From the NCBI RefSeq assembly GCF_026341035.1, contig NZ_JAPEOQ010000002.1, positions 1,426,001 to 1,490,000 of the forward strand: a stretch of 64,000 nt of DNA. Direction: 5' to 3'. This DNA comes from Streptomyces sp. NBC_01016 (GTDB lineage Bacteria > Actinomycetota > Actinomycetes > Streptomycetales > Streptomycetaceae). The notes beneath the pieces are model-generated. The model saw nothing but the letters and a program-made list of their open reading frames with translations. It had not been told where the DNA came from and did no database searches. How positions within the stretch are numbered: position 1 is the stretch's first letter; the number at the start of each line of letters is the position of its first letter. A program made the position numbers and the translations under genes. Below, piece after piece: positions 6,012 through 25,329 of the stretch.

Positions 6012-6052
6012 ACTGCCCCACGGTGGAGTGGTCCACTCCACCGTGGGGCAGT
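6012..6052 (-). terminator. 20-bp perfect inverted repeat after truncated MFS gene
   Basis: Arms at 6012-6031 and 6033-6052 are exact complements around a single central base. The repeat ends 2 bp from the MFS stop codon and lies about 100 bp upstream of the parJ start. A terminator is the simplest reading. Such a symmetric element could also form a cruciform or bind a protein, and it marks the left edge of the accessory block. Confidence 0.65.
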
Positions 6053-6054
6053 CG

Positions 6055-6912
6055 TCAGGTCCGCGCGAGCCGCGCCGCGTCGGGTTCGGCGGCCGGTGCC
6101 TCGCGGATCGGCCTGACCAGCAGCCATGCCCCGCACACCAGGGTCAGCGCCTGGGCCCCGGCGAGCAGGGTGAATCCGGCGCCGAAGCCGTGGCCGCCGC
6201 TCGCCGCGATGGCCACGCCCATGAGGGTCGGCATGAACGCCGACACGAGGTTGCCGACCCCGTTCACGACCCCGTAGGCGCTGCCGACGAAGTGGGCGGG
6301 CGCGCAGTGCTGGACGAGGGTGGGGATGGCGGGGCCCTGTAGGCCCCAGAAGGCGCCGGCCAGAATCAGGCCGGTGGCCGCGGCCCCGTCGCTGTCCGCG
6401 CCCGCGACGAGCAGCACACACACGGCGGTGCCGGTCGAGCCCACCACGAACGGCAGCGCGAGCAGCCGCCGCGGCAGCCGGTCGAGCAGCAGCCCGCCCA
6501 GGAACCCGGACACCAGCGACATCAGGAACGGCAGGGCGGAGACGATCCCCATCGCGGAGAGGGAGAAGTGCCGCTCGTGCAGCAGATACGAGGGCAGCCA
6601 GGCGCTCGACCCCCACAGATACGCGAGCGTGGCGATCTCGATGACCAGGATGGGCGCCAGGCGCGGCATGCGCAGCGCGCCCTTCAGCGTGGCCCCGAAG
6701 CCAGGCCGCTCGGCGCCGCGCACGCCACGTCCTCGTACGCACAGCAGGATCAGCGGCAGGCCGATCACCGCGTTCAGCGCCGCGAGGGCGAGGAACGAGG
6801 TGTGCCAGTCGAAACGGTAGACGAGGTACGTGATCAGGGGGAGGCCCGCGGCCGTGCCGAGGGACACCCCCATCGAGCTGACCGCGTTCGGGCGGCCCGC
6901 TTCGTGCGGCGC
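6055..6912 (-). pseudogene. MFS transporter, N-terminal third missing
   Basis: The translation from about PHEAGRPNAVSSMGVSLGT to ...ARLART is the C-terminal 280 or so residues of a major facilitator, probably of the anion:cation symporter type. It shows the centre of the protein onward with about eight hydrophobic helices. A full member is 400 residues or more. Upstream the frame meets a TGA at 6940-6942 with no transporter-like sequence and no RBS-supported start. An internal ATG at 6873 could initiate only a fragment. I read this as a 5'-deleted remnant. It may once have been the importer of the adjacent catabolic operon. Confidence 0.75.
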
Positions 6913-7157
6913 GCCCCGTGCGGCGCGAGTGCGGGTACTTCAAGCCCGCGAGGCGGCGGGTGCGGGCACATTAAGCCCCTGCGGCGATTGAGCAGCGGGG
7001 TCCGGGGCAGAGCCCCGTGGCCGCAACGCCGTCGGGGTGGGGGTCGACCGTGGGCGCTGCCCCGACGGGGTGCCGCCTTGCCCACCCTGCCGCCCCAGGC
7101 GGCGGACTGCCCAAGGCGGTGGCGCCCCAAGGTGGTGGAGCCCCAAGGCCGTGGCGG
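6913..7157. repeat. Non-coding junction with Streptomyces-type intergenic repeat sequence
   Basis: This 245-bp stretch between the truncated MFS gene and the Rieske oxygenase stop contains TTCAAGCCC, GCGATTGAGCA and GGGGCAGAGCCCC. These resemble degenerate copies of the short repeats scattered between Streptomyces genes. It also has several CCCCAAGG(C/T) near-repeats at 7105-7148. No gene is apparent. It is the probable deletion or insertion breakpoint. Confidence 0.5.
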
Positions 7158-8156
7158 TCACGTGGACGCCTGGGCCTCTGCGGCCGAGTGGTACATGCGG
7201 CGGAGCCGGACCACGCCGAGGTCGTGCTGGTACAGGTTCTCCTGCTGGTCGGCGTCGGCCGGCATGGCCTCCAGCATCTCCCGGTCCTGCTCCAGGACCT
7301 CCCAGTGCCGCTTCTCGATGAGCGTCTTGTAGAGGAAGCGCCAGGTGTCGCGCTGCCAGCCCTGGACCTTGCGGTAGCGCCAGAAGAAGACGGCGCAGCG
7401 CCCCTCGTCGACCGGGCGCACCATGCCGACGATGCCGAACGGGCCGCCGGGGCCCGCGGACGGCGGGTAGGGGATCGACAGGTCGACCCAGTCCACGCCC
7501 GTACGGCACAGCTCGACCCAGTCGAAGTTCACCCCCCGCTGGTCGGTCTTCTCGAAGAAGTAGCCGCGGTCGGTCTCCCGGATGCGGAACTTGGCGGTGG
7601 TGTCACCGTCGAACATGGTGTGTGAGTCGTGGTGCAGGAACTGGCCGTGCATCGGGTCGAGCAGGTTCTCGACGCCGTAGCGCCACGGCACGTTCCACTC
7701 CGCGTAGCAGAGGATCGCGTCGGTGTCGGGGTCGGTCAGCGGCTCGGGGAGCGTCAACTCGGCCGGTTCCGGGTGCTGTTCGTCGCCGAAGTAGGCGAGT
7801 ACGGCGCCGGACACCTCGCGCACGGGAAGCGACGTGACGAGCTTCTTGCCCTCCAGGTTGCAGCCGGGCAGGCCGGGCACGGAGGAGACGGTGCCGTCGG
7901 TCTCGATCTCGATGCCGTGGTACCAGCAGGCCACCCGGTCGCCCAGGTGTTTCCCGAGGGAGAGCGGGGCGCCGCGGTGCGGACAGCGGTCGGCGAGCAT
8001 GCTCAGGGTGCCGTCGGAGCGGCGGAACAGCAGCCACTGCTCGCCGAGGACGGTGACCTTGCGCATCGCGCCGGGCGCGACGAAGGAGGAGGGGACGACG
8101 GGGTGCCACTGGTTGCGCAGGCCGGTCGCGTAGATCTTGTCGGCGGTCAGAGCCAT
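7158..8156 (-). CDS. Rieske non-heme iron oxygenase, alpha subunit
   Basis: A 332-residue single-component-alpha aromatic oxygenase of the phthalate/vanillate type. The Rieske [2Fe-2S] ligands are in CPHRG (C58, H60) and CWYHG (C77, H80). The mononuclear iron site is in ENLLDPMHGQFLHH (D167, H170, H175), with a later QDREML acidic residue likely to complete the triad. It probably hydroxylates or O/N-dealkylates an aromatic substrate using electrons from the PDR-type reductase two genes upstream. It is the last gene of the ten-gene operon, 7 bp after the small HTH-like gene. The substrate cannot be assigned from sequence alone. Confidence 0.9.
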   Translation of the reverse strand: MALTADKIYATGLRNQWHPVVPSSFVAPGAMRKVTVLGEQWLLFRRSDGTLSMLADRCPHRGAPLSLGKHLGDRVACWYHGIEIETDGTVSSVPGLPGCNLEGKKLVTSLPVREVSGAVLAYFGDEQHPEPAELTLPEPLTDPDTDAILCYAEWNVPWRYGVENLLDPMHGQFLHHDSHTMFDGDTTAKFRIRETDRGYFFEKTDQRGVNFDWVELCRTGVDWVDLSIPYPPSAGPGGPFGIVGMVRPVDEGRCAVFFWRYRKVQGWQRDTWRFLYKTLIEKRHWEVLEQDREMLEAMPADADQQENLYQHDLGVVRLRRMYHSAAEAQAST

Positions 8157-8163
8157 GGGTGTG

Positions 8164-8406
8164 TCACGCTCCCAGTCGGTGCATCTCGGCGCGGAAGGAT
8201 TCCTCGGTCCACGGCGCCCCGTCGGGGGCGTGGACCTGACGGGCGTTCAGCCCGCTCACGACGTCGGTGAGTTCGTGGCCGACCTTGGTGAAGACCTCTT
8301 CGAGGGTGGCCGCCAGCTTGAACTCGTAGGGGCTCGGCTCGTGGTCGCGGGACTGGTGGACCTCCAGGTACGGCCAGTCGGTGGTGGTCTCGGTGGTGCT
8401 GCTCAT
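8164..8406 (-). CDS. Small protein with recombinase-like helix-turn-helix (HTH_62-like)
   Basis: An 80-residue protein, MSSTTETTTDWPYLEVHQSR..., ending in LNARQVHAPDGAPWTEESF. The C-terminal half reads like the small 'recombinase-like helix-turn-helix' family found beside Rieske oxygenases. That assignment is from memory and moderate. It is too small to be a recombinase. A regulator or an oxygenase accessory protein is possible. TAGGAGA precedes ATG 8406, and just upstream lie four 9-bp repeats carrying CCTCCT in the mRNA sense. It sits between the oxygenase and its reductase, with only 7 bp to the oxygenase start. Confidence 0.7.
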   Translation of the reverse strand: MSSTTETTTDWPYLEVHQSRDHEPSPYEFKLAATLEEVFTKVGHELTDVVSGLNARQVHAPDGAPWTEESFRAEMHRLGA

Positions 8407-8422
8407 GGGTGTCTCCTACGTC

Positions 8423-8458
8423 TTCAGGAGGTTCAGGAGGTTCAGGAGGTTCAGGTGG
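8423..8458. repeat. 9-bp tandem repeat (3 exact copies plus 1 variant)
   Basis: TTCAGGAGG occurs at 8423-8431, 8432-8440 and 8441-8449, with variant TTCAGGTGG at 8450-8458. It fills the 55-bp gap between the reductase stop and the small HTH gene. On the transcribed strand each unit reads CCTCCTGAA, complementary to Shine-Dalgarno sequences including the one 13-20 bases downstream. Confidence 0.9.
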
Positions 8459-8461
8459 GGC

Positions 8462-9412
8462 TTACAGGTCCAGTACGAGGCGGGAGCCGGCGGCGCAGCG
8501 CGAGACGCAGATCATCATCGAGGCGCTCGCGGCGTGCTCGGCCTCCGACAGGAGGAAGTCGCGGTGTTCGGGGGCGCCTTCGATGACGCGGGTCTCGCAG
8601 GAGCCGCAGATGCCGTCGCGGCACGAGCTGGTGACGTCGATGCCCGCGGTCTCGGCGGCCTCCAGGATCGAGGTGTCGGCGCCGACGGTGAGGGTCTGCC
8701 CCGAGGTGCGGCACTCGACCTCGAACTGGCCGTCGTCCTCGGACCGTTCGGCGACGGGTGCGGCGAACCTTTCGAGGCGCAGTCGGTCGCCGGGGCAGCG
8801 CTCCTCGACGGCGGCGAGCAGCGGCTCGGGCCCGCAGGAGTAGATGAGGGCCCCTTCGGGCAGCCCGGCGAGCGTCGCGTCCAGGTCGATGTGCCCCTGC
8901 TCGTCCTGCGGCACGAGGGTCAAGTCACCTCCCAGAGCAGCCAGTTCTTCGGTGAACGCCATCGAGGCACGCCCCCGGCCGCCGTACACCATGCGCCAGT
9001 CGGCGCCGCGCCGGGCCGCCTCCCTGGCCATCGCGAGGATCGGCGTGACACCGATGCCGCCGGCGATGAACACGTACGCGGGGGCGTCCTCCAGGGCGAA
9101 GTGGTTGCGCGGCTCGGACACGGTGACCTGCTGGCCGGGGCGCAGCTTGGTGTGCACGTGGCGCGAACCACCGCGCGAGGACGGCTCGTTGAGCACACCG
9201 ATGCGGTACGTGCCGCAGTCGGACGGGTCGCCGCACAGGCTGTACTGGCGCACCTGCCCGCCGACGTGCACGTCGAGGTGCGCGCCAGGCGCCCAAGCGG
9301 GGAGTGGCTTGCCGAGCTGGTCGGCGGGCCGGGTCAGCTCGACGGACAGGACGCCGTCGGCCTCCCAGGTCATCCGCCGGACCAGCAGGTCCAGGAGACG
9401 GTCGTCGGTCAT
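8462..9412 (-). CDS. PDR/VanB-family ferredoxin reductase
   Basis: A 316-residue phthalate-dioxygenase-reductase-type protein that passes electrons from NAD(P)H through FMN and a plant-type [2Fe-2S] centre to the Rieske oxygenase. RQYSLCG marks the flavin site. FIAGGIGVTPI and YSCGPEPL mark the nicotinamide-binding domain. SCRDGICGSCET with a later MICVSRC gives the four cluster cysteines in the C-terminal ferredoxin domain. It starts at ATG 9412, 10 bp after the ThDP-enzyme stop. Confidence 0.93.
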   Translation of the reverse strand: MTDDRLLDLLVRRMTWEADGVLSVELTRPADQLGKPLPAWAPGAHLDVHVGGQVRQYSLCGDPSDCGTYRIGVLNEPSSRGGSRHVHTKLRPGQQVTVSEPRNHFALEDAPAYVFIAGGIGVTPILAMAREAARRGADWRMVYGGRGRASMAFTEELAALGGDLTLVPQDEQGHIDLDATLAGLPEGALIYSCGPEPLLAAVEERCPGDRLRLERFAAPVAERSEDDGQFEVECRTSGQTLTVGADTSILEAAETAGIDVTSSCRDGICGSCETRVIEGAPEHRDFLLSEAEHAASASMMICVSRCAAGSRLVLDL

Positions 9413-9422
9413 GGTGGTCTCC

Positions 9423-11051
9423 TTACGCGCCGGGGATCTTCACGGGCGGGGTGAACGGGTTCTTCATCGGGCCGAGCGAGGCGAGGTCGACCTCGACGAG
9501 CGTCGGCCCCTCGGCGCCGACGGCCTGCTCGATCACCGGGCGTGCGTGCTCGGCGTCGGCGATCCGGAGGTACGGCAACCCGCAGGCACGGGCGAGGAGT
9601 TCGAAGTCCGGGGTGGCGAGGTCGACGCCGGAGCGGCGCTCGCTGTAGCGGTCCTGCATATTGCGCAGCACGCCGTAGCCGCCGTCGTTGAAGACCAGGA
9701 CGGTCAGGCGGGGGCGTTCCTGGGCGACGGTGAGCAGCTCGCCGAGGTGCACGGCGAGGCCGCCGTCGCCCGCGATGACGACGGTGGGCCGCTCGGGGTC
9801 GGCGAGCGCGGCTCCGATGCCCATGCCGAGGCCCTGCCCGATGCCGCCGCCGCGCGGGAAGACGTTGGAGCGCGGGTCGTACATCTCCAGGAGCCGGTTG
9901 CCCCAGCTGCTGGACGGGATGGTGACGTCGCGGGCGACGACGGCGTCGCGCGGCAGCACGGCGCGCAGTCCGTCGCAGATGGCGGCCTGGGGGCCGATGT
10001 TGTCGTGGAGCGTGGCGCGTACCTCGGCGCGTACGTCCTTGATTCGCTGGGTCCACGACGGCTCGGCGGGGCGGGCGTGCGGGAGCAGGGCGGCCAGGGC
10101 GTCTACGGCGTCGGCGTGCAGGGTGTGCGCGGCCGGGTAGACGCGGCCGAGGGCGGCGGCGTCGACGTCGATCTGGATGTGGCGGTCGGCGTCGGGGAGT
10201 TGGAGCCCGTAGTCGGCGGTCTCGTTGGAGCGGAAGTGCGTGCCGATGGTCAGCAGAACGTCCGCGTCGGCGAGCAGGGCCCGCCCGGCGGGGGTGGTGG
10301 CGAAGTTGCCGATGACCTGCGGGTGGTCCTCGGGGACCGCGCCGCGCCCGGAGTTGGAGGTGAGCAGCCCGGCGCCGGTCGCCTCGACGAGCGCGGTGAG
10401 CTCGGCGCCCGCGCGGGTGGCACCGCCGCCGGCCCAGATGAGGGGGCGCTCGGCGGAGGCCAACAGGGCGGCTGCGGAGGCCAGTTGGGCGGCATCGATA
10501 GCGGTGGTGACCTGCTCGACGTCCTCGGGAGCGTCCGTCTGCGCCGCGTACTGAAGGTCGATCGGCCACTCCACGCTCGCCGGGCCGCCGGGTGCGGCGA
10601 GCGCGGCGCGGGCGGCGGCGCGCAGGACGGTGCCCGCCTCCTCGGTGGAGCAGACGGTGGCGGCGTACGCCGAGACCGCGTCGAGCATGCCGAGCTGGTT
10701 CTTCGTCTCGTGGATGAACCCGCGTCCGCTGCCCAGGAATTCGGCCTCGACCTGGCCGGTGACGTGCAGCACGGACGTGCCGGAGGCGAGCGCCTCGATC
10801 AGCGACCCGGCCGCGTTGCCCGCACCCGTCCCGGTCGAGGTGAGCGCGCAGCCGATGCCTCCGCGGGCACGGCCGTACGCGTCGGCGGCGTTCACGGCGC
10901 TCGCCTCGTGCCGCACCGGTACGAAGCGCAGCTCGCGGTCGACGGCCTCGACCAGCGGCAGGTTGTGCACGGACACGATGCCGAAGACGGTGTCGACGCC
11001 GAGTTCCTTCAGGACGGCGACGAGGAGGTCACCGCCGTTGGTGTACTGCAT
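9423..11051 (-). CDS. Thiamine-diphosphate-dependent enzyme (benzoylformate decarboxylase/acetolactate synthase-like)
   Basis: A 542-residue three-domain ThDP enzyme. The conserved activating glutamate is E49 in RHEASAVNAADAYGR. The diphosphate/Mg site runs from GDGGLAVHLGEL (near 437) to NDGGYGVLRNM. The middle domain has LIWAGGGATRAGAEL. There is no hydrophobic FAD-specific block that I can identify, so a decarboxylase of a 2-oxo acid or a carboligase is likelier than true AHAS. Within the operon it could decarboxylate a 2-oxo acid produced after ring cleavage. The start at ATG 11051 has GAGGAG upstream. Confidence 0.88.
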   Translation of the reverse strand: MQYTNGGDLLVAVLKELGVDTVFGIVSVHNLPLVEAVDRELRFVPVRHEASAVNAADAYGRARGGIGCALTSTGTGAGNAAGSLIEALASGTSVLHVTGQVEAEFLGSGRGFIHETKNQLGMLDAVSAYAATVCSTEEAGTVLRAAARAALAAPGGPASVEWPIDLQYAAQTDAPEDVEQVTTAIDAAQLASAAALLASAERPLIWAGGGATRAGAELTALVEATGAGLLTSNSGRGAVPEDHPQVIGNFATTPAGRALLADADVLLTIGTHFRSNETADYGLQLPDADRHIQIDVDAAALGRVYPAAHTLHADAVDALAALLPHARPAEPSWTQRIKDVRAEVRATLHDNIGPQAAICDGLRAVLPRDAVVARDVTIPSSSWGNRLLEMYDPRSNVFPRGGGIGQGLGMGIGAALADPERPTVVIAGDGGLAVHLGELLTVAQERPRLTVLVFNDGGYGVLRNMQDRYSERRSGVDLATPDFELLARACGLPYLRIADAEHARPVIEQAVGAEGPTLVEVDLASLGPMKNPFTPPVKIPGA

Positions 11052-11060
11052 GTGAACTCC

Positions 11061-11837
11061 TCAGAGGATGCCGCGGCCGACGCCGCCGCAGACGTCGATG
11101 GCGGTCCCGGTGATGTACGAGGCGCGTGGCGAGAGCAGCGCGACGATCGCGTAAGCGACCTCCTCGGCGCGGCCGAGCCGGCCGAGCGAGACGCCGCGGT
11201 CGGCGGCCAGTTCCGCCTGCCAGTCCTCGTAACTCATCCCGGAGTCCGCGGCGGCGTGCCGGCGCGTCCACTGCCCGGTGTCGATGAGGCCGAGGCAGAC
11301 CGAGTTGACCCGGATGCCATCCGAAGCCAGCTCCTGGGAAAGGGACTTGGAGAGGTTGAGGATGCCGGCGCGGGCGGCGCTCGTCGTGATCAGCCGCGGC
11401 TCGGGCTGCTTGGCGAGCACCGCGTTGACGTTGACGACGGAGGCCGCTTCGGACGCCCGCAGATACTCCCGCGCCGCCTGGAGCGGATTCAGCACGCCCG
11501 CGAACTTCAGCTCCAGCTCGTCGCGCCAGTCGTCCTCGGTCGTGTCGTCGAGGCGCTTCATGCGGGACTGGCCGGCGTTGTTGACCAGTCCGTCGATGCG
11601 CCCGTCGAAGGCCTGCGCGGACGCCGCCACGAAGCCGCGTACGGCGTCGGCGTCGCGCACGTCGCAGGTGGCGGTGAAGAGGCGCTCGTGGGTGCCGAGC
11701 TTCTTCAGGCGGTCGGCGTCGCGCCCGCAGGTGGCGACGTTCGCGCCTTCGTCGAGGAGGGCGCGGACCGTGGCCAGGCCGACGCCCGAGCTGCCTCCGG
11801 TGACCACATAGGTCCGGTCGGCGAGGCCCAGATCCAT
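11061..11837 (-). CDS. SDR-fold protein lacking the canonical catalytic residues
   Basis: A 258-residue short-chain dehydrogenase fold with an intact cofactor motif (TGGSSGVG, residues 13-20) and NNAG (86-89). The catalytic positions are altered. NVNAV replaces the usual N-(I/V)-S-S strand. The YxxxK position reads TSAAR (T152, R156). Variants with TSAARAG occur in other SDRs I have seen, so this is probably a subfamily trait. It could be an isomerase, a dehydrogenase with another mechanism, or a non-redox protein. Start ATG 11837 has GGAGAA upstream. It is followed after 9 bp by the ThDP enzyme. Confidence 0.85.
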   Translation of the reverse strand: MDLGLADRTYVVTGGSSGVGLATVRALLDEGANVATCGRDADRLKKLGTHERLFTATCDVRDADAVRGFVAASAQAFDGRIDGLVNNAGQSRMKRLDDTTEDDWRDELELKFAGVLNPLQAAREYLRASEAASVVNVNAVLAKQPEPRLITTSAARAGILNLSKSLSQELASDGIRVNSVCLGLIDTGQWTRRHAAADSGMSYEDWQAELAADRGVSLGRLGRAEEVAYAIVALLSPRASYITGTAIDVCGGVGRGIL

Positions 11838-11872
11838 AACTCAGTTCTCCAGTACGGAAGTTGGGTGTTGGG

Positions 11873-12622
11873 TCAGTTCATGGTGAATCCGCCGTTGACG
11901 GCGATCACCTGTCCGGTCAGATAGCGGGACTCCTCGGAGAGGAGGAAGGACGCGAACCCGGTCAGGTCGTCGGGCTGCTGCGGCCGGGAGATCGCCCGGT
12001 TCGCGGCGTAGAGACCGTGCCGCTCCTCCGGGACCGTCTCGGTCGCCTCGCATTCGGTGAGGCCCGGCGCCAGCGCGTTCACGGTGATGCCGCGCTCGCC
12101 GAGCTCCCGGGCCATCGCGCGGGTGAGGGCGATGACCGCGCCCTTCGACGTGATGTAGTGCGCGAGCCGGGGCGAACCGTAAAGGGCGGCGTCCGAGGCG
12201 ATGTTGACGATGCGTCCGGTCGGGCCGAACAGCGGGTGCAGCGCCTTGGACACCAGCCAGGGGCCGCGCGCGTTCACCGTCATCAGGCGGTCCCAGGCCT
12301 CGATGTCGATGTCCTGGAACTCCTTGCCGCCGACGCCGTTGGCGAGGGCCGCGTTGTTGACGAGACCGTAGAGCCCGCCCAAGTCACGTACGAACGAGGC
12401 GAGTTCCTCGACGGACGCCGGGTCCGCCACGTCGCAGCGTGCGAAGTGCGCGTCGTGCCCCTCGCTCCGCAGCTCCTCGGCCGCGCGGGCGCCGCGCTCC
12501 GGGTCGAGCTCGGCGAGGACGACCCGGAAGCCGTCCGCGCCGGCCCGGCGGGCCATGGCCAGTCCCAGACCACGGCCCGCCCCGGTCACGACGACCGTGC
12601 GCGCGTCACGCGAGTCAGTCAC
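11873..12622 (-). CDS. SDR-family oxidoreductase (canonical)
   Basis: A 249-residue short-chain dehydrogenase. TGAGRGLG binds the dinucleotide, NNAA is the structural motif, and Ser (NIASDA) with YITSK completes the catalytic set. D39 in VVLAELD at the end of the second strand suggests preference for NAD(H). A likely role is oxidation of a dihydrodiol or a hydroxyacid intermediate. GTG 12622 overlaps the cupin stop by 8 bp, implying translational coupling. Confidence 0.92.
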   Translation of the reverse strand: MTDSRDARTVVVTGAGRGLGLAMARRAGADGFRVVLAELDPERGARAAEELRSEGHDAHFARCDVADPASVEELASFVRDLGGLYGLVNNAALANGVGGKEFQDIDIEAWDRLMTVNARGPWLVSKALHPLFGPTGRIVNIASDAALYGSPRLAHYITSKGAVIALTRAMARELGERGITVNALAPGLTECEATETVPEERHGLYAANRAISRPQQPDDLTGFASFLLSEESRYLTGQVIAVNGGFTMN

Positions 12623-13136
12623 GGGTGACGCCGTGCATCGGCGAGTACTCGGGGTACGAGGGCACCTGCGGCTTCTGCGTGCCGATGACCACGCAGAACA
12701 GGGCGTCGGTGTCGCCCTCGTTCTTCAGCGAGCGGGTCACACCGGCGGGCACCACGATCATGTCGCGGTAGCCGAGGGTGCGGTACTCGACCTCGTCCGG
12801 GCCGCGGTGGACGCCGACGCGAACCTCGCCCTCCAGGACGAAGAAGGCCTCCTCCACGTCGTGGTGGGTGTGGGCCGGGCCCTCGGCGCCGGGCGGAAGC
12901 AGCATGTTGGAGAAGGTGAAGCCGCCGGACGGCAGGATGCGGCTGTCGCCCTCGTGGTTGCCGGTGGCGCCGGAGCCGACGTAGCGGATCTGGCCGCGGC
13001 GGTACTGCTTGCCCGCCTTCTCCTGGAAGGAGAGCGTGTCGAAGTCGGCGACGCGGGACTCCTTCGACGCGATCAGCGAGTCGGTGTACGTGCCGAGGTC
13101 GCCGCCGTTGTCGTACTCGGTGGTGGTCAGAGGCAT
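12615..13136 (-). CDS. Cupin-domain protein
   Basis: A 173-residue single-domain cupin. HTHHDVEEAFFVLEGEVRV is cupin motif 1 with His, His and Glu metal ligands. Motif 2 is weaker (YRDMIVVPAGV...SLKNEG) and seems to lack the usual histidine. The N-terminal 60 residues are family specific. It could be a ring-cleavage dioxygenase, an isomerase or a binding protein. The start at ATG 13136 has GAAAGG upstream. Confidence 0.82.
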   Translation of the reverse strand: MPLTTTEYDNGGDLGTYTDSLIASKESRVADFDTLSFQEKAGKQYRRGQIRYVGSGATGNHEGDSRILPSGGFTFSNMLLPPGAEGPAHTHHDVEEAFFVLEGEVRVGVHRGPDEVEYRTLGYRDMIVVPAGVTRSLKNEGDTDALFCVVIGTQKPQVPSYPEYSPMHGVTRD

Positions 13137-13158
13137 GGTGTGAGCCTTTCGGGGTGCG

Positions 13159-15640: not shown

Positions 15641-15662
15641 CTCAGGAACTCCTGGATCGTGG

Positions 15663-18737: not shown

Positions 18738-18806
18738 CGGAGGGTGGGGGTGTCGCGGCGTCGGAGGCAGGTGCCCCCGGCGCCGCCGTCGCGTGAGCGC
18801 CCGATG

Positions 18807-19904
18807 TCACGCGGGGTCCGGCGGGTCCGCGAGGGTCGCGCCCAACACCCCCATCAGTACCCGCAGTTGGCGCCGCTCGTCCACCCCGAGCCCGTCGAGC
18901 AGCTCCCGCTCGGCCGCCGTACGTTCCTCGGCCACCCGGTCGACCAGCTCCCGCCCCGCCCCGCTGAGGCGCAGGTACACGATCCGCCGGTCCCGGTCGT
19001 CCCGCTCCCGCTCGATGAGCCCGGCCCGCTCCAGTCGGTCCGCGTGCTGGGTCATCCCGCCGGCCCGGACCGCGCCCGCCGCCGCCAGCTCGCCCATGGT
19101 GCGGCGGTGCGGGGCCGGGGCGCGGCTCAGCTCGGCGAGCACCTCGAAGGCGGCGAGGCCGATGCCGTGCCGCTTGACGGCACGGCCGATCAGGGTGCGG
19201 TAGCGGTCGGCGCAGTCGGTGAGGGCGGCGAAGGCGCGGGTGTCGGCGTCGGTGGCGGGGGAGTCCTCGGGGCGCGTCGGCCCGGCGGCGCCCGCCGCGG
19301 GCGTGCCGATGGCCGCGGCCAGTACGTCCGCGAGCAGCGGCTCCAGGTCGGCCGTCGGCACCGAGCGGGCCGGCTCGTGCGCGAACAGGTAGCGCTCCAT
19401 GATGACGCCGAACAGGACGCTGCGGATCATGCCGATCCTGGCCGTCGCCTCGGGGCTCTCGCCGAGTACGCCCCGCAGGGGCCCGGTCACCAGCCGTTCC
19501 AGGAGCTCGCTCAACTGCTGTGCGCTGGGCGGGTGGTTGAGCGCCGAGCGGATCAGCGCGGCCAGCGGGTCCTCGGCGGAGAGGCGGTCCCAGCGGTCGA
19601 GGTAGGAGTGGGCGAGGGCCCCCGGGAGGCCGGCCGGATCGTTGCCCGCCTCGTCGAGCAGGGCGGCCGTGACGCCGGTCCCCTCGCCGACGACGGCGCG
19701 GAAGAGGCCGTCCTTGGACCCGAAGTACGACATCACGAGGCCGGGCGTCACGCCGGCCTCGGTGGCGATCGCCCGGATGCCGACGCCTTGGTATCCGTGG
19801 GCCGCGAACAGCCGCCGGGCCGCTTCGAGCACGGCCCTCCGGTTCCCCGCGGGGTCGTGGGAGCGGCCGCGCCGCCTCTCCTGCGTCTCGTGCTGTCCGT
19901 CCAC
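18807..19904 (-). CDS. TetR-MarR fusion transcriptional regulator
   Basis: One uninterrupted 365-residue frame encodes two regulators. Residues from about 20 to 200 are TetR-like: ARRLFAAHGYQGVGIRAIA...SYFGSKDGLFRAVV is the HTH, followed by a helical ligand domain. Residues from about 220 to 365 are MarR-like: RHGIGLAAFEVL, MTQHADRLERAGLIER and RDRRIVYLRLSG form the winged helix. Either half alone would be normal length for its family. GTG 19904 lacks a clear SD. It is preferred to ATG 20012 because the intervening DNA carries an operator-like inverted repeat. It is divergent from the molybdenum hydroxylase genes. Confidence 0.85.
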   Translation of the reverse strand: MDGQHETQERRRGRSHDPAGNRRAVLEAARRLFAAHGYQGVGIRAIATEAGVTPGLVMSYFGSKDGLFRAVVGEGTGVTAALLDEAGNDPAGLPGALAHSYLDRWDRLSAEDPLAALIRSALNHPPSAQQLSELLERLVTGPLRGVLGESPEATARIGMIRSVLFGVIMERYLFAHEPARSVPTADLEPLLADVLAAAIGTPAAGAAGPTRPEDSPATDADTRAFAALTDCADRYRTLIGRAVKRHGIGLAAFEVLAELSRAPAPHRRTMGELAAAGAVRAGGMTQHADRLERAGLIERERDDRDRRIVYLRLSGAGRELVDRVAEERTAAERELLDGLGVDERRQLRVLMGVLGATLADPPDPA

Positions 19905-19949
19905 GGCGCAACAGTAGTCGAGCCGATGGGCTGGCAAGCTTCTGCACGA

Positions 19950-19990
19950 CCGTTCAAAACGGTAACCGTTGAAAACACTGGTTTGAACGG
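19950..19990. promoter_or_regulatory. Inverted-repeat operator candidate upstream of tetR-marR
   Basis: CCGTTCAAA at 19950-19958 pairs with TTTGAACGG at 19982-19990. Between them AACGGT-A-ACCGTT (19958-19970) is a second dyad, and CCGTTGAAA at 19967-19975 is a third half-site. The site is 46 bp from the GTG start of the fusion regulator and fits autoregulation by its TetR domain. Confidence 0.6.
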
Positions 19991-20042
19991 ACCTATCGCT
20001 GCCTCTTGCCAAGAAGGTACTTCAGCATCAATCATTTCAGGC

Positions 20043-20114
20043 CTTAGGTACATGGCTCCAGGTGCATGGCCTTGGACGCATGGCGCCTTAGGTACATGGC
20101 CTGAGGTGCACCCG
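20043..20114. repeat. Five-copy 14-bp tandem repeat upstream of molybdenum hydroxylase genes
   Basis: CTTAGGTACATGGC occurs at 20043-20056 and 20087-20100. Diverged copies are TCCAGGTGCATGGC (20057-20070), CTTGGACGCATGGC (20071-20084) and CTGAGGTGCACCCG (20101-20114). A 2-base insert separates copies 3 and 4. The array ends 28 bp before the GTG of the FAD-subunit gene, where an operator array or leader element would lie. Confidence 0.8.
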
Positions 20115-20142
20115 TACCCGCTCTACCGATCCGAGAGGCCTG

Positions 20143-21015
20143 GTGGCAGACGGCTTGAAACCCACACCCTTCGACTACAGCGCGCCGCACTCCGTCCCGG
20201 AGGCGCTCGCGCTGCTCGCCGACGAGGACCGCGAGCCCAAGGTGGTGGCCGGCGGCCAGTCGCTGATCCCGATGCTGAGCATGCGGCTCGCCCGCCCCGG
20301 GCTCCTCGTCGACATCACGCGCATCCCCGGCCTCGGTGACCTCTCCGTCGACGCGTCGGGCGCGCTGCGCATCGGCGCCGCCGTCCGTCAGTCCGCCGCG
20401 GCCGCCGACCCCCGGCTCCGCGAAGGCTGGCCGCTGCTCGCCGCCGCGATCGGTCACATCGGACACCCGCAGATCCGGGCCCGCGGCACCGTCTGCGGCA
20501 GCCTCGTCCACCACGACCCGGCCGCCGAACTCCCCACCGCCGCCGTGGCGTTGGACGCCCGTTTCGTCATCGCGGGGCCGGCGGGGGAGCGCACCGTCGC
20601 GGCCGAGGAGTTCTTCGTCGCCACCTTCCAGACCGCCGTGGAACCGGACGAACTCCTCACCGAGGTCGTGTTCCCGGCCCGCCGCGGCGGCTGGGCCTTC
20701 GAGGAACTCGCCCGCCGGCACGGCGACTTCGCCACGGTCGGCGTCGCCGTCCTCCTCGAACGCTCGGGCCCCGCCGTGAGCACCGCCCGCGTCGTCTTCT
20801 GCGGCGTCGGCCCCACCCCGGTCCGGCTGCCCGCCGCCGAAGCGGCGCTGACCCGCACCGACGCGGGGCCGGCCGCCCAAGACGCCGCCCGCGAAGCCGC
20901 CCTCGCGCACCTCGACCCGTCCGACGACGTCCACGCCACGGCCGCGTACCGCCGCGAGGCCGCCGCCCACCTCCTCGCCCGCGCCTGCACCACCGCATGG
21001 GAGCGCACCCGATGA
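20143..21015 (+). CDS. Molybdenum hydroxylase FAD-binding (medium) subunit, CoxM-like
   Basis: A 290-residue FAD subunit of the xanthine dehydrogenase/CO dehydrogenase family. VVAGGQSLIPMLSMRL and GTVCGSLVHHDPAAELP are the two flavin-diphosphate motifs. The enzyme passes electrons from Mo through two [2Fe-2S] centres to FAD. GTG 20143 follows GAGAGG. It is the first gene of a 4-bp-overlapping set with the small and large subunits. Confidence 0.92.
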   Translation: MADGLKPTPFDYSAPHSVPEALALLADEDREPKVVAGGQSLIPMLSMRLARPGLLVDITRIPGLGDLSVDASGALRIGAAVRQSAAAADPRLREGWPLLAAAIGHIGHPQIRARGTVCGSLVHHDPAAELPTAAVALDARFVIAGPAGERTVAAEEFFVATFQTAVEPDELLTEVVFPARRGGWAFEELARRHGDFATVGVAVLLERSGPAVSTARVVFCGVGPTPVRLPAAEAALTRTDAGPAAQDAAREAALAHLDPSDDVHATAAYRREAAAHLLARACTTAWERTR

Positions 21016-21620
21016 CCGCCACGACACCCACGCCCGCCGCCACTCCCAAGGCCGTGCGGACGCCGCCGCTCGCCGAACCCTCCGGCTGGCACGAGGTCCG
21101 CCTCACCGTGAACGGCGAACCCGTCACCGCCCAGGTCGAATCCCGGCTGCTGCTCAGCGACTTCCTGCGCGACCGGCTCCGGCTCACCGGTACGCACGTC
21201 GGCTGCGAGCACGGCGTGTGCGGCGCCTGCACCGTCCTGGTCGACGGCACGCCCGTCCGCTCCTGCCTCACGCTCGCCGTGCAGTGCGAAGGCGCCGAAC
21301 TGCGCACCGTCGAGGGCCTGGCCCGGCCGGACGCGCCGCTCACCCCGGTGCAGGAGGCCTTCCACGCGTGCCACGGCATGCAGTGCGGGTTCTGCACCCC
21401 CGGCTTCCTCATGACGGCGACGGCCCTGACCGAACAGGGCGAGCGGCCGGGCGACACCGAGGTCGCCGACGCGCTCAGCGGCCACCTGTGCCGCTGCACC
21501 GGCTACCGCAACATCCGCCGCGCGCTGTCCCGTGCCCTCGACGAGACGTACGAGGTCGAAAGTGACACCGCCACCGCCACCGCCATCACCACCTCCACCG
21601 ACGCACAGCGAGGGAAGTGA
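21012..21620 (+). CDS. Molybdenum hydroxylase [2Fe-2S] (small) subunit, CoxS-like
   Basis: A 202-residue iron-sulfur subunit. CEHGVCGACTVLVDG with a following SC gives the plant-type cluster. CHGMQCGFCTPGF with CRCTGY gives the helical-domain cluster. ATG 21012 overlaps the FAD-subunit stop (ATGA) and is preferred over ATG 20997, five codons upstream. The N- and C-termini carry Thr/Ala/Pro-rich tails longer than usual for the family. Confidence 0.92.
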   Translation: MTATTPTPAATPKAVRTPPLAEPSGWHEVRLTVNGEPVTAQVESRLLLSDFLRDRLRLTGTHVGCEHGVCGACTVLVDGTPVRSCLTLAVQCEGAELRTVEGLARPDAPLTPVQEAFHACHGMQCGFCTPGFLMTATALTEQGERPGDTEVADALSGHLCRCTGYRNIRRALSRALDETYEVESDTATATAITTSTDAQRGK

Positions 21621-23971
21621 CCCGCATGCCCGCCCCCTGGATCGGCCGCCCCGTTCCCCGCGTCGAGGACGACCGCCTGCTGCGCGGCAACGGCCGCTAC
21701 GTCGACGACATCGAGCTGCCCGGCGCCGCCGAGGCCGCCGTCCTGCGCAGCCCGCACGCCCACGCCCGCATCGAGTCGGTCGACGTGACCGCCGCGCTCG
21801 ACGCCCCGGGCGTCCTCGCCGTGTGGACGGGCGCCGACGTCGCCCACCTCGCGCCACTCCTGAACAAGGAGGAGCTGCGCACCCCGCCCCGCCTCGCCGA
21901 ACTCCTCGCCCCGCGCGTCGCCGTGACCCCGATGCCGCTGCTCGCCACCGACAAGGTCCGCTACGTCGGCGAGCCCGTCGCCATCGTCTTCGCCGACAGC
22001 CGCTACCTCGCCGAGGACGCCCTCGAACGCGTCGACGTCCGCTACGCGCCGCTGCCCGTCCTCGTCGACCCGGACCGCGCCCTCGCGGACGGCGCCCCGC
22101 TGCTCCACGAGGACCTGCCGGACAACACGGCGGTGGCCGTCGCCACCCAAGTGGGCGACCCGGACGCCGCGTTCGCCGCCGCGCACACCGTCATCAGCGA
22201 GGAGTTCCGGGCCCACCGCTACGTCGCCTCGCCCATCGAGACCCGCGCAGTCGCCGCCCGCGTCGACCCCTACAGCGGAGGCCTCACCGTCTGGTCCAAC
22301 ACCCAGACCCCGCACCGTGTCCGCGAGTCCATCGCCACCACCCTCGGCCTCGACGCCGAATCCGTCCGTGTCATCGCCACCGACGTCGGCGGCGGCTTCG
22401 GCCAGAAGGGCATCCTCTACGTAGAGGAAATGCTGATCCCTTACGCGGCAGGCAAGTTGGGCCGCCCCGTAGTCTGGCGCGAGGACCGCAACGAGAACCT
22501 CACCGCCGCCTCGCACGCCCGCGAGCAGATCCACCGCATCGAACTCGCCGCCGACGCCGACGGCAGACTCCTCGCCGTACGCGACCGCATCACCGTCAAC
22601 TTCGGCGCGTACAACATGACCGGCCTGGTCGTCCCGTACAACTCGCTGTGCCACCTCCTCGGCCCCTACCGGATCCCGAACGTCGACATCGACGTCCTCG
22701 GCGTCCTCACCAACACCGCATTCGCCACGCCCTACCGGGGTGCGGGGCGCCCCGAGACGGTGTTCGCGATGGAGCGGGCCATGGACCGGCTCGCCGCACA
22801 ACTCGGGCTCGAACCGGCCGAGTTGAGAGCCCGCAACCTCATCGGCCCCGACGACATGCCGTACACGACCGGTCTCGTCGACCGCTCCGGAAACCCTCAG
22901 TCGTACGACTCCGGTGACTTCCCCGAACTGCTGCGCCGCGCCCGCGCCAAGGTGGACACCACTCGCCGTGCACCGCGCGACGGCAAGCACATCGGCGTCG
23001 GCTACGCCATGTACATCGAGGCCACCGGGCTCGGGCCGTTCGAGACCGCGCGCATCGACATCGCCCCCAGCGGCCGCGTCAAACTCGCCATCGGTGCGCC
23101 CTCGCAGGGCCAGGGCCACCGCACCTCCATGGCGCAGATCGCCGCCGACGCGCTCGGCGTCCCGCTGGACATCATCGACGTGGTGGGCGGGGACACCGAC
23201 AAGACCCCCTTCGGCGTCGGCACCATCGCCAGCCGCGCCCTCGTCAACGCGGGCAACGCGACCCACCGGGCCGGGAAACTCGTACGCGAAAAGGCCCTCG
23301 ACCTCGCCGCCCGCCGACTCGGCGTCCCGGTCGCCGAACTCACCCTCACCGACGGTGTGTTCACCACCAGGACGCCCGACGGGCCCACCCTCACCCTCGC
23401 CGAACTCGCGGGGCGCGCCCCGCTCCCCGGCAACCCCGAACCCACCGACGGCCGACACGGCACCGAACTCAGCGAGACCGTCCACTTCCGCCCGCCAGGC
23501 TTCGCCGTCGCCAGCGGAGCGCACGCCGCCGTCGTCGAAGTCGACGAGCACACCGGCGAGTTGGAGATCCTCCAGTACGTCGTCGTCCACGACGCCGGTG
23601 TCATCGTCAACCCGCTCATCGCCGAGGGCCAGGTCACCGGCGGCATCGCCCAGGGCATCGGCGGCGCCCTCTACGAGGAGATGATCTACGGCCCCGACGG
23701 CCAGCCCCGCACCGGCACGTACATGGACTACCTCGTCCCCACCTCCTCCGAGATCCCCGACCTCGACATGGACGAGATCCACTCGCCGAGCCCCATGAAC
23801 GACCTCGGAGTGAAGGGCCTCGGCGAGGGCGGCGCCATCGCTCCGCAGGCCGTTCTCGCGAACGCCGTCGAGGACGCGCTGCGCCCCTTCGGCATCGTGG
23901 TCCGCCGCGGCCCGCTCTCGCCCAGCCGCATCCGCGACCTGCTGCGCGACGCTCCCGCCGCCACTCACTGA
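21617..23971 (+). CDS. Molybdenum hydroxylase catalytic (large) subunit, form-II-CoxL-like
   Basis: A 784-residue Mo-cofactor subunit. GGGFGQKG, the active-site loop PYRGAGR (about residue 372) and the catalytic Glu in GLGEGGAI (about 737) are visible. Genuine CO dehydrogenase (form I) has AYxCSFR, so oxidation of CO is not supported. The AYRGAGR-type loop fits the broad group acting on aldehydes, purines or N-heteroaromatics. GTG 21617 overlaps the small-subunit stop as GTGA. An ATG three codons later is the alternative. Hydroxylation of the catabolic substrate is the contextual inference. Confidence 0.9.
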   Translation: MTRMPAPWIGRPVPRVEDDRLLRGNGRYVDDIELPGAAEAAVLRSPHAHARIESVDVTAALDAPGVLAVWTGADVAHLAPLLNKEELRTPPRLAELLAPRVAVTPMPLLATDKVRYVGEPVAIVFADSRYLAEDALERVDVRYAPLPVLVDPDRALADGAPLLHEDLPDNTAVAVATQVGDPDAAFAAAHTVISEEFRAHRYVASPIETRAVAARVDPYSGGLTVWSNTQTPHRVRESIATTLGLDAESVRVIATDVGGGFGQKGILYVEEMLIPYAAGKLGRPVVWREDRNENLTAASHAREQIHRIELAADADGRLLAVRDRITVNFGAYNMTGLVVPYNSLCHLLGPYRIPNVDIDVLGVLTNTAFATPYRGAGRPETVFAMERAMDRLAAQLGLEPAELRARNLIGPDDMPYTTGLVDRSGNPQSYDSGDFPELLRRARAKVDTTRRAPRDGKHIGVGYAMYIEATGLGPFETARIDIAPSGRVKLAIGAPSQGQGHRTSMAQIAADALGVPLDIIDVVGGDTDKTPFGVGTIASRALVNAGNATHRAGKLVREKALDLAARRLGVPVAELTLTDGVFTTRTPDGPTLTLAELAGRAPLPGNPEPTDGRHGTELSETVHFRPPGFAVASGAHAAVVEVDEHTGELEILQYVVVHDAGVIVNPLIAEGQVTGGIAQGIGGALYEEMIYGPDGQPRTGTYMDYLVPTSSEIPDLDMDEIHSPSPMNDLGVKGLGEGGAIAPQAVLANAVEDALRPFGIVVRRGPLSPSRIRDLLRDAPAATH

Positions 23972-23998
23972 CCCACGACCGGAAGAAAGAACCCCGCC

Positions 23999-24625
23999 AT
24001 GCAACTCGACCACACCTTCACCGTCCCGGCCGCGCCCGACGACGCCTGGAAGCTCTTCCACGACCTCGGCCGCGTGGCCCCCTGCATGCCCGGCGCCGTC
24101 CTCGACACCCTCGACGGCGACACCTTCACCGGCCGCGTGAAGGTCAAGGTCGGCGCGGTGCAGATGAGTTACCGGGGCGAGGGCACCGTGGCCCGCGACG
24201 AGGCCACCCGCACCATGCGGCTCGGCCTCAGCGGCAGCGAGACCCGCGGCGCGGGCACGGCCTCCGCGACCGTCACGGCGGAACTCGTCGCCGACCCCGC
24301 CGGCACCCGCGTCCGGGTCCGCACCGACCTCGACATCACCGGCAGGCCCGCCCAGTTCGGGCGCGGCATCATGACCGAGGTCGGCGACCGCATCGTCGGC
24401 CAATTCGCCGACCGTCTCGCGGAGTTGATGTCCGGTCCGCAGATGGAGTCCGCCGCACCGGCGGCCCTCGCCGCACCGGCGGTCCCCGCCGAACCGGAGG
24501 CCGTCGACCTCGGCGCCGCCGCCCTGCCCGTACTCCTGAAGAAGGCCGTCGTTCCGGCCGCCGCCGCACTCGCGGCGGTGATACTGGTCGGCGTGATCGG
24601 CAGGCGCCGCCGCGCGGCCCGCTGA
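23999..24625 (+). CDS. CoxG-like SRPBCC protein with C-terminal membrane anchor
   Basis: A 208-residue protein. Residues 1-145 form a START/SRPBCC domain of the CoxG type (LDHTFTVPAAPDDAWKLF, with CMPGA and GRVKVKVG). After an Ala/Pro linker, VVPAAAALAAVILVGVIG followed by RRRRAAR is a tail membrane anchor with positive-inside charge. CoxG in CO oxidisers tethers the Mo enzyme to the membrane. The same role is likely here. The start has GGAAGAAAG upstream and is 27 bp after the large-subunit gene. Confidence 0.88.
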   Translation: MQLDHTFTVPAAPDDAWKLFHDLGRVAPCMPGAVLDTLDGDTFTGRVKVKVGAVQMSYRGEGTVARDEATRTMRLGLSGSETRGAGTASATVTAELVADPAGTRVRVRTDLDITGRPAQFGRGIMTEVGDRIVGQFADRLAELMSGPQMESAAPAALAAPAVPAEPEAVDLGAAALPVLLKKAVVPAAAALAAVILVGVIGRRRRAAR

Positions 24626-24659
24626 CGGCCGGGGCGCCGTCCGCCCCTACCGTGATCGC

Positions 24660-24682
24660 TTCAGGGGTAGAATTTTCAGGGG
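24660..24682 (+). promoter_or_regulatory. Direct repeat TTCAGGGG upstream of marR
   Basis: TTCAGGGG at 24660-24667 and 24675-24682 repeats with 15-bp spacing in the 101-bp gap before marR. It overlaps an AT-richer AGAATTTT segment that could include a promoter. It is a candidate activator or repressor site. Confidence 0.4.
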
Positions 24683-24726
24683 CGTAACAATTCGCGCCCG
24701 CCCGTGAGACGTGCGAGGGGACGGGG

Positions 24727-25251
24727 ATGGCCGAGCGGAAGGCGAAGCGGCACGACGCCGTGACACAGATCGTGGCGGACTGGGCGCGGGAGCGGCCCGA
24801 GCTCGACACAGGACCGCTGGAGGTGCTGGCCCGCCTGCACCGCTCGTTCCTGCGCTACAACACCAAGCTCAACGCGTCGATCGAGCGGCACGGCCTGTCC
24901 GTCGCCGGCTTCGACGTGCTGACCGCGCTGCGTCGTGCGGGCAAGCCGTACCGGCTCACCGCAGGGCAGCTCGCCGACTCGGGGCTCGTCTCGTCCGCCG
25001 GGGTCACCCTGCGCATGGACCGCCTGGAGAAGGACGGCCTGATAGTCCGCGAGCGGGACGCCGAGGACCGCCGGGTCGTCTACTCCCGGCTCACCGACAC
25101 CGGACTCGCCAAGGTGGACGAGGTGTTCACCGACCACCTGGCCAACGAGGAGCGCATGCTCGCCGCCATCACCCCAGCCGAACGCCGCCAACTCGCCCGC
25201 CTCCTGGGCAAGTTGGAGTTTTCGATCCTGGACGCGGACGACGACAGCTAG
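24727..25251 (+). CDS. MarR-family transcriptional regulator
   Basis: A 174-residue winged-helix regulator. RHGLSVAGFDVLTALRRAG, the recognition helix region SSAGVTLRMDRLEKDGL and wing DAEDRRVVYSRLTDTG are typical of MarR proteins that bind aromatic ligands. It closes the molybdenum hydroxylase cluster, with GAGGGGACGGGG before ATG 24727. Its middle resembles the MarR half of the fusion regulator (HGI/LS..(G/A)F(E/D)VL, DRLE..GLI.RERD.(E/R)DRR), suggesting duplication. Confidence 0.9.
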   Translation: MAERKAKRHDAVTQIVADWARERPELDTGPLEVLARLHRSFLRYNTKLNASIERHGLSVAGFDVLTALRRAGKPYRLTAGQLADSGLVSSAGVTLRMDRLEKDGLIVRERDAEDRRVVYSRLTDTGLAKVDEVFTDHLANEERMLAAITPAERRQLARLLGKLEFSILDADDDS

Positions 25252-25281
25252 AGCCCCGCAACCCCGGCGCCGCGCAAGCGA

Positions 25282-25314
25282 AAGGGGCGGCACCCCCCGT
25301 GGGAGCCGCCCCTT
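25282..25314. terminator. Convergent terminator between marR and glpD
   Basis: AAGGGGCGGC at 25282-25291 pairs with GCCGCCCCTT at 25305-25314 around a 13-base loop. It lies between the marR stop (25251) and the glpD stop (25330) and marks the right edge of the accessory block. Confidence 0.8.
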
Positions 25315-25329
25315 CCGCCTGTCCGGGGA

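Follow-up and report, generated by a model that had tools for sequence, protein, structure and literature searches.

Kynurenic acid (4-hydroxyquinoline-2-carboxylate) is a brain-active product of tryptophan breakdown whose degradation by bacteria was described about 60 years ago. In the Pseudomonas pathway (Hayaishi and Taniuchi, 1961-63) C7-C8 dihydroxylation gives a dihydrodiol that is dehydrogenated, extradiol cleavage opens the 8-8a bond, and the side chain is reduced, decarboxylated to an aldehyde and oxidized to yield 5-(2-carboxyethyl)-4,6-dihydroxypicolinate; the upstream steps are EC 1.14.99.2, 1.3.1.18 and 1.13.11.10. We analysed a stretch of 64,000 nucleotides from the genome of Streptomyces sp. 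NBC_01016 (hereafter the window), which carries a ring-hydroxylation/meta-cleavage gene cluster that possibly holds the missing genes of this long-described pathway. Unlike the cluster, the Pseudomonas pathway is known from enzymes and intermediates; its genes were not found in the literature searched, and no gene-level account of the present gene set or of kynurenate degradation was found in open-access publications, most subscription papers and all preprints being beyond the scope of that search.

Several other catabolic systems share part of the gene content. The quinoline and quinaldine routes also combine a molybdenum (Mo) hydroxylase of the xanthine dehydrogenase (XDH) family with a Rieske oxygenase acting subsequently on the quinoline ring (structures 1t3q and 1z01), but they proceed by other ring cleavages and without a thiamine diphosphate (ThDP)-dependent enzyme, a cupin or an aspartate dehydrogenase. 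Biphenyl and phenylpropionate meta pathways have in common with the cluster a Rieske oxygenase, a short-chain dehydrogenase/reductase (SDR), an extradiol dioxygenase of the VOC family and an alpha/beta hydrolase; they use a hydratase, an aldolase and an acylating aldehyde dehydrogenase where the locus described here has the ThDP enzyme, the cupin and the aspartate dehydrogenase-like protein. The Arthrobacter kpi system for 4-hydroxypyridine resembles our proposal in the oxygenative opening of a pyridine followed by an alpha/beta hydrolase (KpiB) acting on an N-acyl enamine, but its ring opener is a dioxygenase of the amidohydrolase family, and neither a Rieske enzyme nor aspartate is mentioned in the main text (PMC7356986). 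Two further articles state that a kynurenate degradation pathway was suggested for P. fluorescens, with the formation of 7,8-dihydroxykynurenic acid as reference (PMC5610271, citing Taniuchi and Hayaishi 1963), and that pseudomonads form glutamate, alanine and organic acids from kynurenic acid (PMC11354673, citing Horibata 1961).

The host genome comprises 10.0 Mb in two contigs. Analysis of open reading frames and codon positions, together with family scans, defined a set of eleven genes on the minus strand of the window, from 17147 down to 7158:

15663-17147, minus: aldehyde dehydrogenase (ALDH); PF00171, 538 bits
14717-15640, minus: VOC-family type I extradiol dioxygenase; PF00903
13926-14720, minus: aspartate dehydrogenase family protein (AspDH); PF01958, PF03447
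13159-13929, minus: alpha/beta hydrolase, enol-lactonase-like, below cut-offs
12615-13136, minus: cupin; PF07883
11873-12622, minus: SDR2; PF13561
11061-11837, minus: SDR1; PRK07062 SDR family, 349 bits, cut-off of 266 passed
9423-11051, minus: ThDP-dependent enzyme with all three TPP domains; PRK07064, 689 bits, cut-off of 495 passed
8462-9412, minus: Rieske oxygenase reductase, NAD-binding domain and C-terminal plant-type [2Fe-2S] domain; PF00175, PF00111
8164-8406, minus: HTH_62 protein, small (80 aa) and acidic, between the reductase and Rieske genes; PF20552, 107 bits
7158-8156, minus: Rieske oxygenase, VanA/CarAa-like; PF00355, PF19112

The distances between successive genes from ALDH to Rieske are 22, -4, -4, 22, -8, 35, 9, 10, 55 and 7 bp. 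As these intervals are short or overlapping, the eleven genes form an apparent operon that is probably co-transcribed. The ten enzymes of the initial annotation are all present, with gaps and overlaps from -8 to +55 bp; the count missed the eleventh gene, HTH_62, and the label "C-C hydrolase" is unsupported, the family being alpha/beta hydrolases closest to enol-lactonases and esterases. Among the NCBIfam families listed for the operon proteins, at most 25 for each, only PRK07064 and PRK07062 are matched above cut-off, and both carry generic names ("thiamine pyrophosphate-binding protein" and "SDR family oxidoreductase").

From the enzyme classes encoded, we consider it probable that the core operon degrades kynurenate to 2-oxoglutarate and iminosuccinate, with a Mo hydroxylase encoded on the facing strand feeding in quinaldate; we infer the substrate, the reactions and their order as follows. 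Kynurenate would be imported by the MFS protein encoded divergently from the operon, and converted to its 7,8-cis-dihydrodiol by the Rieske oxygenase (kynurenate 7,8-dioxygenase) with the reductase and the HTH_62 partner. One SDR (we propose SDR2, as cis-dihydrodiol dehydrogenase) would re-aromatize the dihydrodiol, and the VOC enzyme (7,8-dihydroxykynurenate 8,8a-dioxygenase) would cut the 8-8a bond to give a pyridine bearing a 2-oxobutenoate side chain. The remaining SDR (SDR1 proposed) would then reduce the side-chain C=C bond, the ThDP enzyme would decarboxylate the 2-oxoacid side chain, and ALDH would oxidize the resulting formylethyl group to the carboxyethyl group of 5-(2-carboxyethyl)-4,6-dihydroxypicolinate. 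For the second ring, the cupin is envisaged to cleave C4-C5 of the beta-dicarbonyl dihydroxypicolinate with O2, and the hydrolase to split the enamide into 2-oxoglutarate and aminofumarate/iminosuccinate, which AspDH may convert to aspartate (or form in the reverse reaction) and which RidA, in other taxa, may hydrolyse with release of ammonia and formation of oxaloacetate. Our own chemical reasoning underlies the cupin and hydrolase steps; C4-C5 cleavage followed by enamide hydrolysis would explain the formation of glutamate and of oxaloacetate-derived products as well as the presence of AspDH and RidA.

A gene of the right class is present for each described kynurenate step, the ring-opening assignment being ours, so that the scheme would provide every proposed step with a gene and every core enzyme with a step. 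Rieske oxygenase, SDR and VOC extradiol enzyme together are a standard means to open a fused benzene ring. Their combination with a ThDP enzyme and ALDH is unusual: no hydratase or aldolase was found among the family matches of the operon proteins, and this pair appears to occupy the place which those enzymes hold in ordinary meta pathways.

The catalytic motifs of the Rieske and VOC enzymes are those of their classes. Rieske oxygenases are characterized by C-x-H ... C-x2-H and D-x2-H-x4-H motifs; in five aligned sequences C58, H60, C77 and H80 (C-P-H, C-W-Y-H) and the mononuclear iron residues D167, H170 and H175 are invariant. The nearest solved protein is CarAa (carbazole dioxygenase), with 2-oxoquinoline 8-monooxygenase (1z01) lower down. 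The VOC enzyme is similar to catechol 2,3-dioxygenase and HpaD, below cut-offs, with 3b59 as nearest solved chain; the 2-His-1-Glu site of the C-terminal domain (H144, H199, E250), which we take from BphC and HpaD to be the iron ligands, is identical in six of six aligned sequences. ALDH is BADH/HpaE-like and reaches the curated cut-off of none of the 25 families listed. The best NCBIfam match of SDR2 is pyridoxal 4-dehydrogenase (195 bits, below the cut-off of 325); the distribution of roles between SDR1 and SDR2 is a guess and may be swapped. The cupin is 41-87% identical to 13 homologues, in which H89, H91 and E95 are invariant: it keeps the HxH-x3-E motif and has an invariant R135 at the place of the fourth ligand. 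The hydrolase model (pLDDT 97) has an uncharacterized hydrolase, an esterase and an enol-lactonase as nearest solved folds, and its fold search returned the general alpha/beta hydrolase fold only.

The Rieske gene is found in 31 of 199 Streptomyces genomes, two of these with a partial gene (G485, G401), and in two of the 296 genomes of a phylum-wide sample, both Streptomyces (up to seven candidates scored per genome); the block is therefore not universal in the genus, whose universal possession of it at this locus would have spoken against the initial interpretation. HTH_62 follows the Rieske gene closely. Strong matches occur in 30 of the 31 Rieske-positive genomes, the exception being G401 with its Rieske fragment, and in none of the 168 Rieske-negative genomes, where three weak matches were seen (two barely above the Pfam cut-off). 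The HTH_62 stretches are acidic, with a median isoelectric point of 5.0 (n=85, near-copies included), a property that disfavours DNA binding, and comparison of the HTH_62 model with known folds returned nothing under an E value of 2.7. The Pfam name "recombinase-like helix-turn-helix" may thus mislead for a protein that travels with one Rieske family.

To examine conservation, the Rieske alignment was used to query one genome of each species, giving at least 480 relatives among at least 597 pattern matches; the counts below rest on the best 80 of these loci. The core ten (Rieske, HTH_62, both SDRs, ThDP enzyme, cupin, hydrolase, VOC, ALDH and AspDH, detected by tblastn with fixed identity floors) are complete in 51 loci and nine are present in 14, while 13 of the remaining 15 loci lie on stretches shorter than 18 kb. 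The 47 top-scoring Rieske loci are all named Streptomyces. Arranged in at least five gene orders, the core set also occurs among other Actinomycetota and among alpha-, beta- and gamma-proteobacteria, so that the search in other phyla called for by the initial annotation recovers it in Proteobacteria. Gene order varies among Streptomyces, Amycolatopsis, Paraburkholderia, Novosphingobium and Rhodospirillales whereas the gene set is constant, and annotated plasmid records carrying the set were found for Novosphingobium, Caballeronia, Acinetobacter, Klebsiella, Nitratireductor, Paracoccus and Pseudosulfitobacter. A Rieske ferredoxin and an FAD ferredoxin reductase take the place of the reductase in Acinetobacter and most Burkholderiales loci; Cupriavidus EM10, unlike most Burkholderiales, retains the reductase. 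The core genes are one conserved unit whose co-occurrence is far beyond chance.

A few loci deserve separate mention. Plasmid pNK84 of Caballeronia NK8 (L161) has at 13287-22518 a second, partial copy (ferredoxin, HTH_62, Rieske, ThDP enzyme, VOC) followed by a Mo hydroxylase and an SRPBCC gene. In a Klebsiella pneumoniae record (L157, 22164-22932) the AspDH frame is unannotated and apparently split in two. A haloarchaeal neighbourhood on a Salinigranum plasmid (L017, 1163-12321), with AspDH, VOC, ThDP enzyme, SDR, IclR and a ring-hydroxylating dioxygenase subunit, resembles the set but is built from other family members. A similar cluster presumably surrounds PA3505 of P. aeruginosa. PA3505 is called an essential gene in one paper (PMC9732424).

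The clue to nitrogen in the substrate comes from AspDH. The protein has both the NAD-binding domain (PF03447) and Asp_DH_C (PF01958), as does L-aspartate dehydrogenase 2dc1, to which it aligns over nearly its full length (E 4e-25), and it also aligns to 1h2h. It differs from the characterized enzyme in its position within a catabolic operon and in passing none of the cut-offs of the eight matched NCBIfam models for aspartate dehydrogenase (best TIGR03855, 147 bits versus 207; PRK13303.1-3, 147 versus 177). Profile searches covered 43 non-Streptomyces loci (L019, a near-copy of L014, excluded); for 21 of these, additional flanking sequence out to about 30 kb was included on one side or both. 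AspDH was found in 27 loci, and RidA in one of these 27 as compared to nine of the 16 loci without AspDH (p 1.7e-4, with loci treated as unrelated). RidA is present in each of the six clusters from Rhodococcus, Gordonia, Nocardia, Tsukamurella and Corynebacterium that have no AspDH; in Streptomyces loci it was seen as one distant match (L044, 34%). As RidA proteins hydrolyse enamines and imines, the replacement of AspDH by RidA makes an imine or enamine intermediate likely, the simplest substrate common to both proteins being iminosuccinate/aminofumarate. The earlier proposal of a single pathway for a nitrogen-containing aromatic is borne out in that the genes form one conserved unit. Its nitrogen is backed indirectly, by the RidA exchange and by the nearest solved Rieske and Mo proteins, which by score include enzymes from carbazole, nicotine and quinoline degradation; this support does not extend to the substrate itself.

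In the window the cluster lies between a PAC2 gene, presumably parJ, and glpD, which are separated by 19.3 kb (6036-25330). Both genes are on the same contig in 37 of 41 Streptomyces genomes drawn, and the gap between them is below 2 kb (28-1823 bp) in 26 genomes, 2.6-4.8 kb in three and 8.3-20.6 kb in eight, as expected from the insertion suggested initially. Three of the eight wide gaps contain the cluster (the window, G021 and G023); five, of 8-19 kb, are without a cluster Rieske gene (G014, G019, G033, G036, G040). Since wide gaps occur both with and without the cluster, the interval between the PAC2 gene and glpD is an insertion hot spot, into which the block has inserted. The site is closed in G004, G015 and G024, where the Rieske gene has another location; in G002 the Rieske and PAC2 genes are adjacent and glpD is on a separate contig, and the cluster is also found at other sites, e.g., on a 1.16-Mb replicon of S. 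chartreusis. No border repeat is apparent, the longest word common to 5901-7200 and 24601-25500 being 12 bp, nor is there a tRNA at the block borders (a single tRNA was detected in the window, at 43582). GC content shows little difference, at 0.72 within the block, 0.71 in the left flank and 0.69 in the right flank.

The remainder of the block was found as initially annotated, with the addition of a transporter remnant behind the Rieske gene:

6055-6873, minus: MFS transporter remnant, C-terminal part only (Pfam match from position 128 of 347)
17148-17354, no strand: divergent promoter region in which TAAGCGCYTA occurs twice (17197 and 17267)
17355-18737, plus: MFS importer; TIGR00895, 230 bits, below the cut-off of 419
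18807-19904, minus: TetR-MarR fusion regulator, start uncertain; PF00440, PF17920 and MarR domains in one frame
20143-21015, plus: Mo hydroxylase FAD subunit; PF00941, PF03450
21012-21620, plus: Mo hydroxylase 2x[2Fe-2S] subunit; PF00111, PF01799
21617-23971, plus: Mo hydroxylase large subunit; PF02738, PF20256, PF01315
23999-24625, plus: CoxG/SRPBCC protein; PF06240, hydrophobic C-terminal stretch visible in the translation
24727-25251, plus: MarR regulator, a relative of which adjoins the Rieske gene in many other loci

The Mo, FAD and 2x[2Fe-2S] parts of a Mo hydroxylase are thus encoded together. The solved proteins nearest to the large subunit are 7dqx, 8uem and 1t3q, and this list, ordered by score, includes N-heteroaromatic enzymes such as quinoline oxidoreductase; the best plasmid-borne relatives are at most 42.5% identical, and one of the 40 listed out of 439 is annotated kdhC. 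An orthologue of the large subunit (identity of at least 81%, E up to 1e-200, with five candidates scored in each genome) was found in 11 of the 31 Rieske-positive Streptomyces genomes and in none of the 168 Rieske-negative ones (Fisher p 2e-10, shared ancestry ignored). It lies 13-16 kb from the Rieske gene in eight of the 11 genomes and on another contig in three (G004, G386, G428), two of these assemblies being drafts with 140 and 540 contigs. These data support that the Mo hydroxylase goes with the Rieske cluster in Streptomyces. It would serve as an optional entry, most simply as a quinaldate 4-hydroxylase forming kynurenate. Quinaldic acid is described as dehydroxylated kynurenic acid (PMC11354673), a relation that makes a hydroxylating Mo enzyme a natural entry step. 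In L161 the XDH-family enzyme sits by the second, partial set together with an SRPBCC gene like CoxG. Another accessory gene, for an FAD monooxygenase similar to 3-hydroxybenzoate 6-hydroxylase and urate hydroxylase, lies near 12 of the 43 non-Streptomyces loci (L072 at 7436-8605, L074, L067, L071, L073, L078, L085, L088, L093, L139, L153 and L158), whose hosts are Actinomycetota and one alphaproteobacterium.

A number of observations weigh against the kynurenate scheme. On the enzymatic side, the hydrolase resembles enol-lactonases and esterases; in the profile search with the cupin, oxalate oxidase outscores quercetinase QueD (E 9e-6), and no molecule named diketone-cleaving is among the matches listed; reduction of a C=C bond is not usually the work of an SDR; and the recurrent FAD monooxygenase has no place in the scheme. 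For the Mo protein, CO dehydrogenase 8uem ranks second, slightly above quinoline oxidoreductase, and its large subunit has a CO dehydrogenase group as best NCBIfam match (748 bits against a cut-off of 950). Just three of the 43 outside loci have strong XDH-family matches nearby (Rhodospirillales L075, Actinoallomurus L090 and Caballeronia L161), two of them about 31-33% identical to the protein of the window, with weak matches near two further loci (131 and 154 bits). In the AspDH/RidA comparison, three of the nine RidA genes (L082, L096, L098) adjoin partial sets only, and seven of the 16 AspDH-less loci also lack RidA. Of these, L081 and L095 lie on full stretches and L083, L084, L087 and L091 on short ones, and in L161 the edge of the locus cuts the first copy. 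Finally, tryptophan 2,3-dioxygenase (TDO) has no match in the cluster loci or in the extended flanks of 21 genomes. TDO is present in 194 of 199 Streptomyces genomes, where its presence is therefore uninformative, and it was found in 17 of the 28 searched genomes or records that carry a cluster, nearly all non-Streptomyces. A class I aminotransferase used as query matched nothing near the clusters, and a class V enzyme gave a single weak match (L143, 29%), so linkage of kynurenate-formation genes to the cluster, which would support the scheme but is not demanded by it, was not found.

The lack of TDO matches near the clusters speaks for another quinoline- or pyridine-carboxylate as the main natural substrate of the same chemistry, with dihydroxylation of the ring, its meta cleavage, decarboxylation and release of an imine, for instance xanthurenate, quinaldate alone or a plant or microbial 4-quinolone-2-carboxylate. 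The optional Mo hydroxylase and FAD monooxygenase modules also vary by taxon, as if several compounds were funnelled into the pathway. We regard this alternative as doubtful, because kynurenate satisfies all core steps and the constancy of the core set argues for one common intermediate.

It is improbable that the Mo block is an unrelated neighbour, e.g., a CO dehydrogenase-like system that landed at the same hot spot. This would fit with the wide gaps that have no Rieske gene, with the lack of a detected orthologue in 20 of the 31 Rieske-positive Streptomyces genomes (five candidates scored per genome) and with the CO dehydrogenase group, below cut-off, as best NCBIfam match. Against it, all 11 genomes with an orthologue are Rieske-positive, three of them with the Mo gene on another contig, and XDH-family enzymes recur by some clusters elsewhere. 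The active-site loop of form I CO dehydrogenase is AYxCSFR, whereas the large subunit reads ATPYRGAGRPE, with YRGAGRPE at this place. For the loop and the co-occurrence, an assignment of the block as CO dehydrogenase is not favoured despite its best, sub-threshold NCBIfam match.

A phenylalanine or meta-tyrosine-type ring, converted by Rieske oxygenase and SDR to 2,3-dihydroxyphenylalanine, cleaved by VOC and split by a C-C hydrolase to L-aspartate for AspDH, would make sense of the VOC, AspDH and hydrolase genes overlapping by 4 bp each and of aspartate as the product of such a hydrolase; it is very improbable because four enzymes (the ThDP enzyme, ALDH, the cupin and one SDR) would be without a role, the AspDH-for-RidA exchange would go unexplained, and a hydratase and an aldolase would be needed, neither seen in the operon. 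A homoprotocatechuate-like route, considered for the HpaD and HpaE similarities, was rejected: no isomerase, hydratase or aldolase is matched, and AspDH and the cupin would be idle.

Transport and regulation of the block show further features. The MFS importer is nearest to aromatic acid/H+ symporters (TIGR00895). The frame of the MFS remnant behind the Rieske gene extends further upstream in relatives, the missing N-terminal part being visible in the printed start of five of the seven inspected. In the divergent promoter region, TAAGCGCYTA at 17197-17206 and 17267-17276 are the sole matches in the window even when one mismatch is allowed (four matches as palindromes on both strands, versus a mean of 0.95 expected; two of 100 shuffles reach four). 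The pair is a possible operator. A common operator of the core and Mo promoters was considered and discarded, the palindrome within one mismatch being confined in the window to the core promoter. The TetR-MarR fusion is kept in two relatives (L102, 9372-10526; L104, 5918-7066); both domains are recognized by Pfam in the window and in L102, and L104 aligns over nearly its full length.

A wider reading, which we put forward tentatively and at somewhat less than even chance, is that the cluster is the basis of kynurenate degradation across Actinomycetota and Proteobacteria, with two novel types of component, a cupin family that splits a dihydroxypyridine at the bond joining two carbonyl carbons and HTH_62 as a dedicated, small and acidic Rieske partner (subunit or assembly factor) instead of a DNA-binding protein, and with AspDH and RidA interchangeable as the final step in handling iminosuccinate. 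Plants, animals and microbes contain kynurenic acid, which acts on glutamate receptors and on aryl hydrocarbon receptors. To our knowledge, EC 1.14.99.2, 1.3.1.18 and 1.13.11.10 have no assigned sequences; if the reading is true, these activities would gain them, and the opening of the second, nitrogen-containing ring would become directly testable. Consumers of kynurenate, soil and clinical bacteria included, would then be readable from their genomes.

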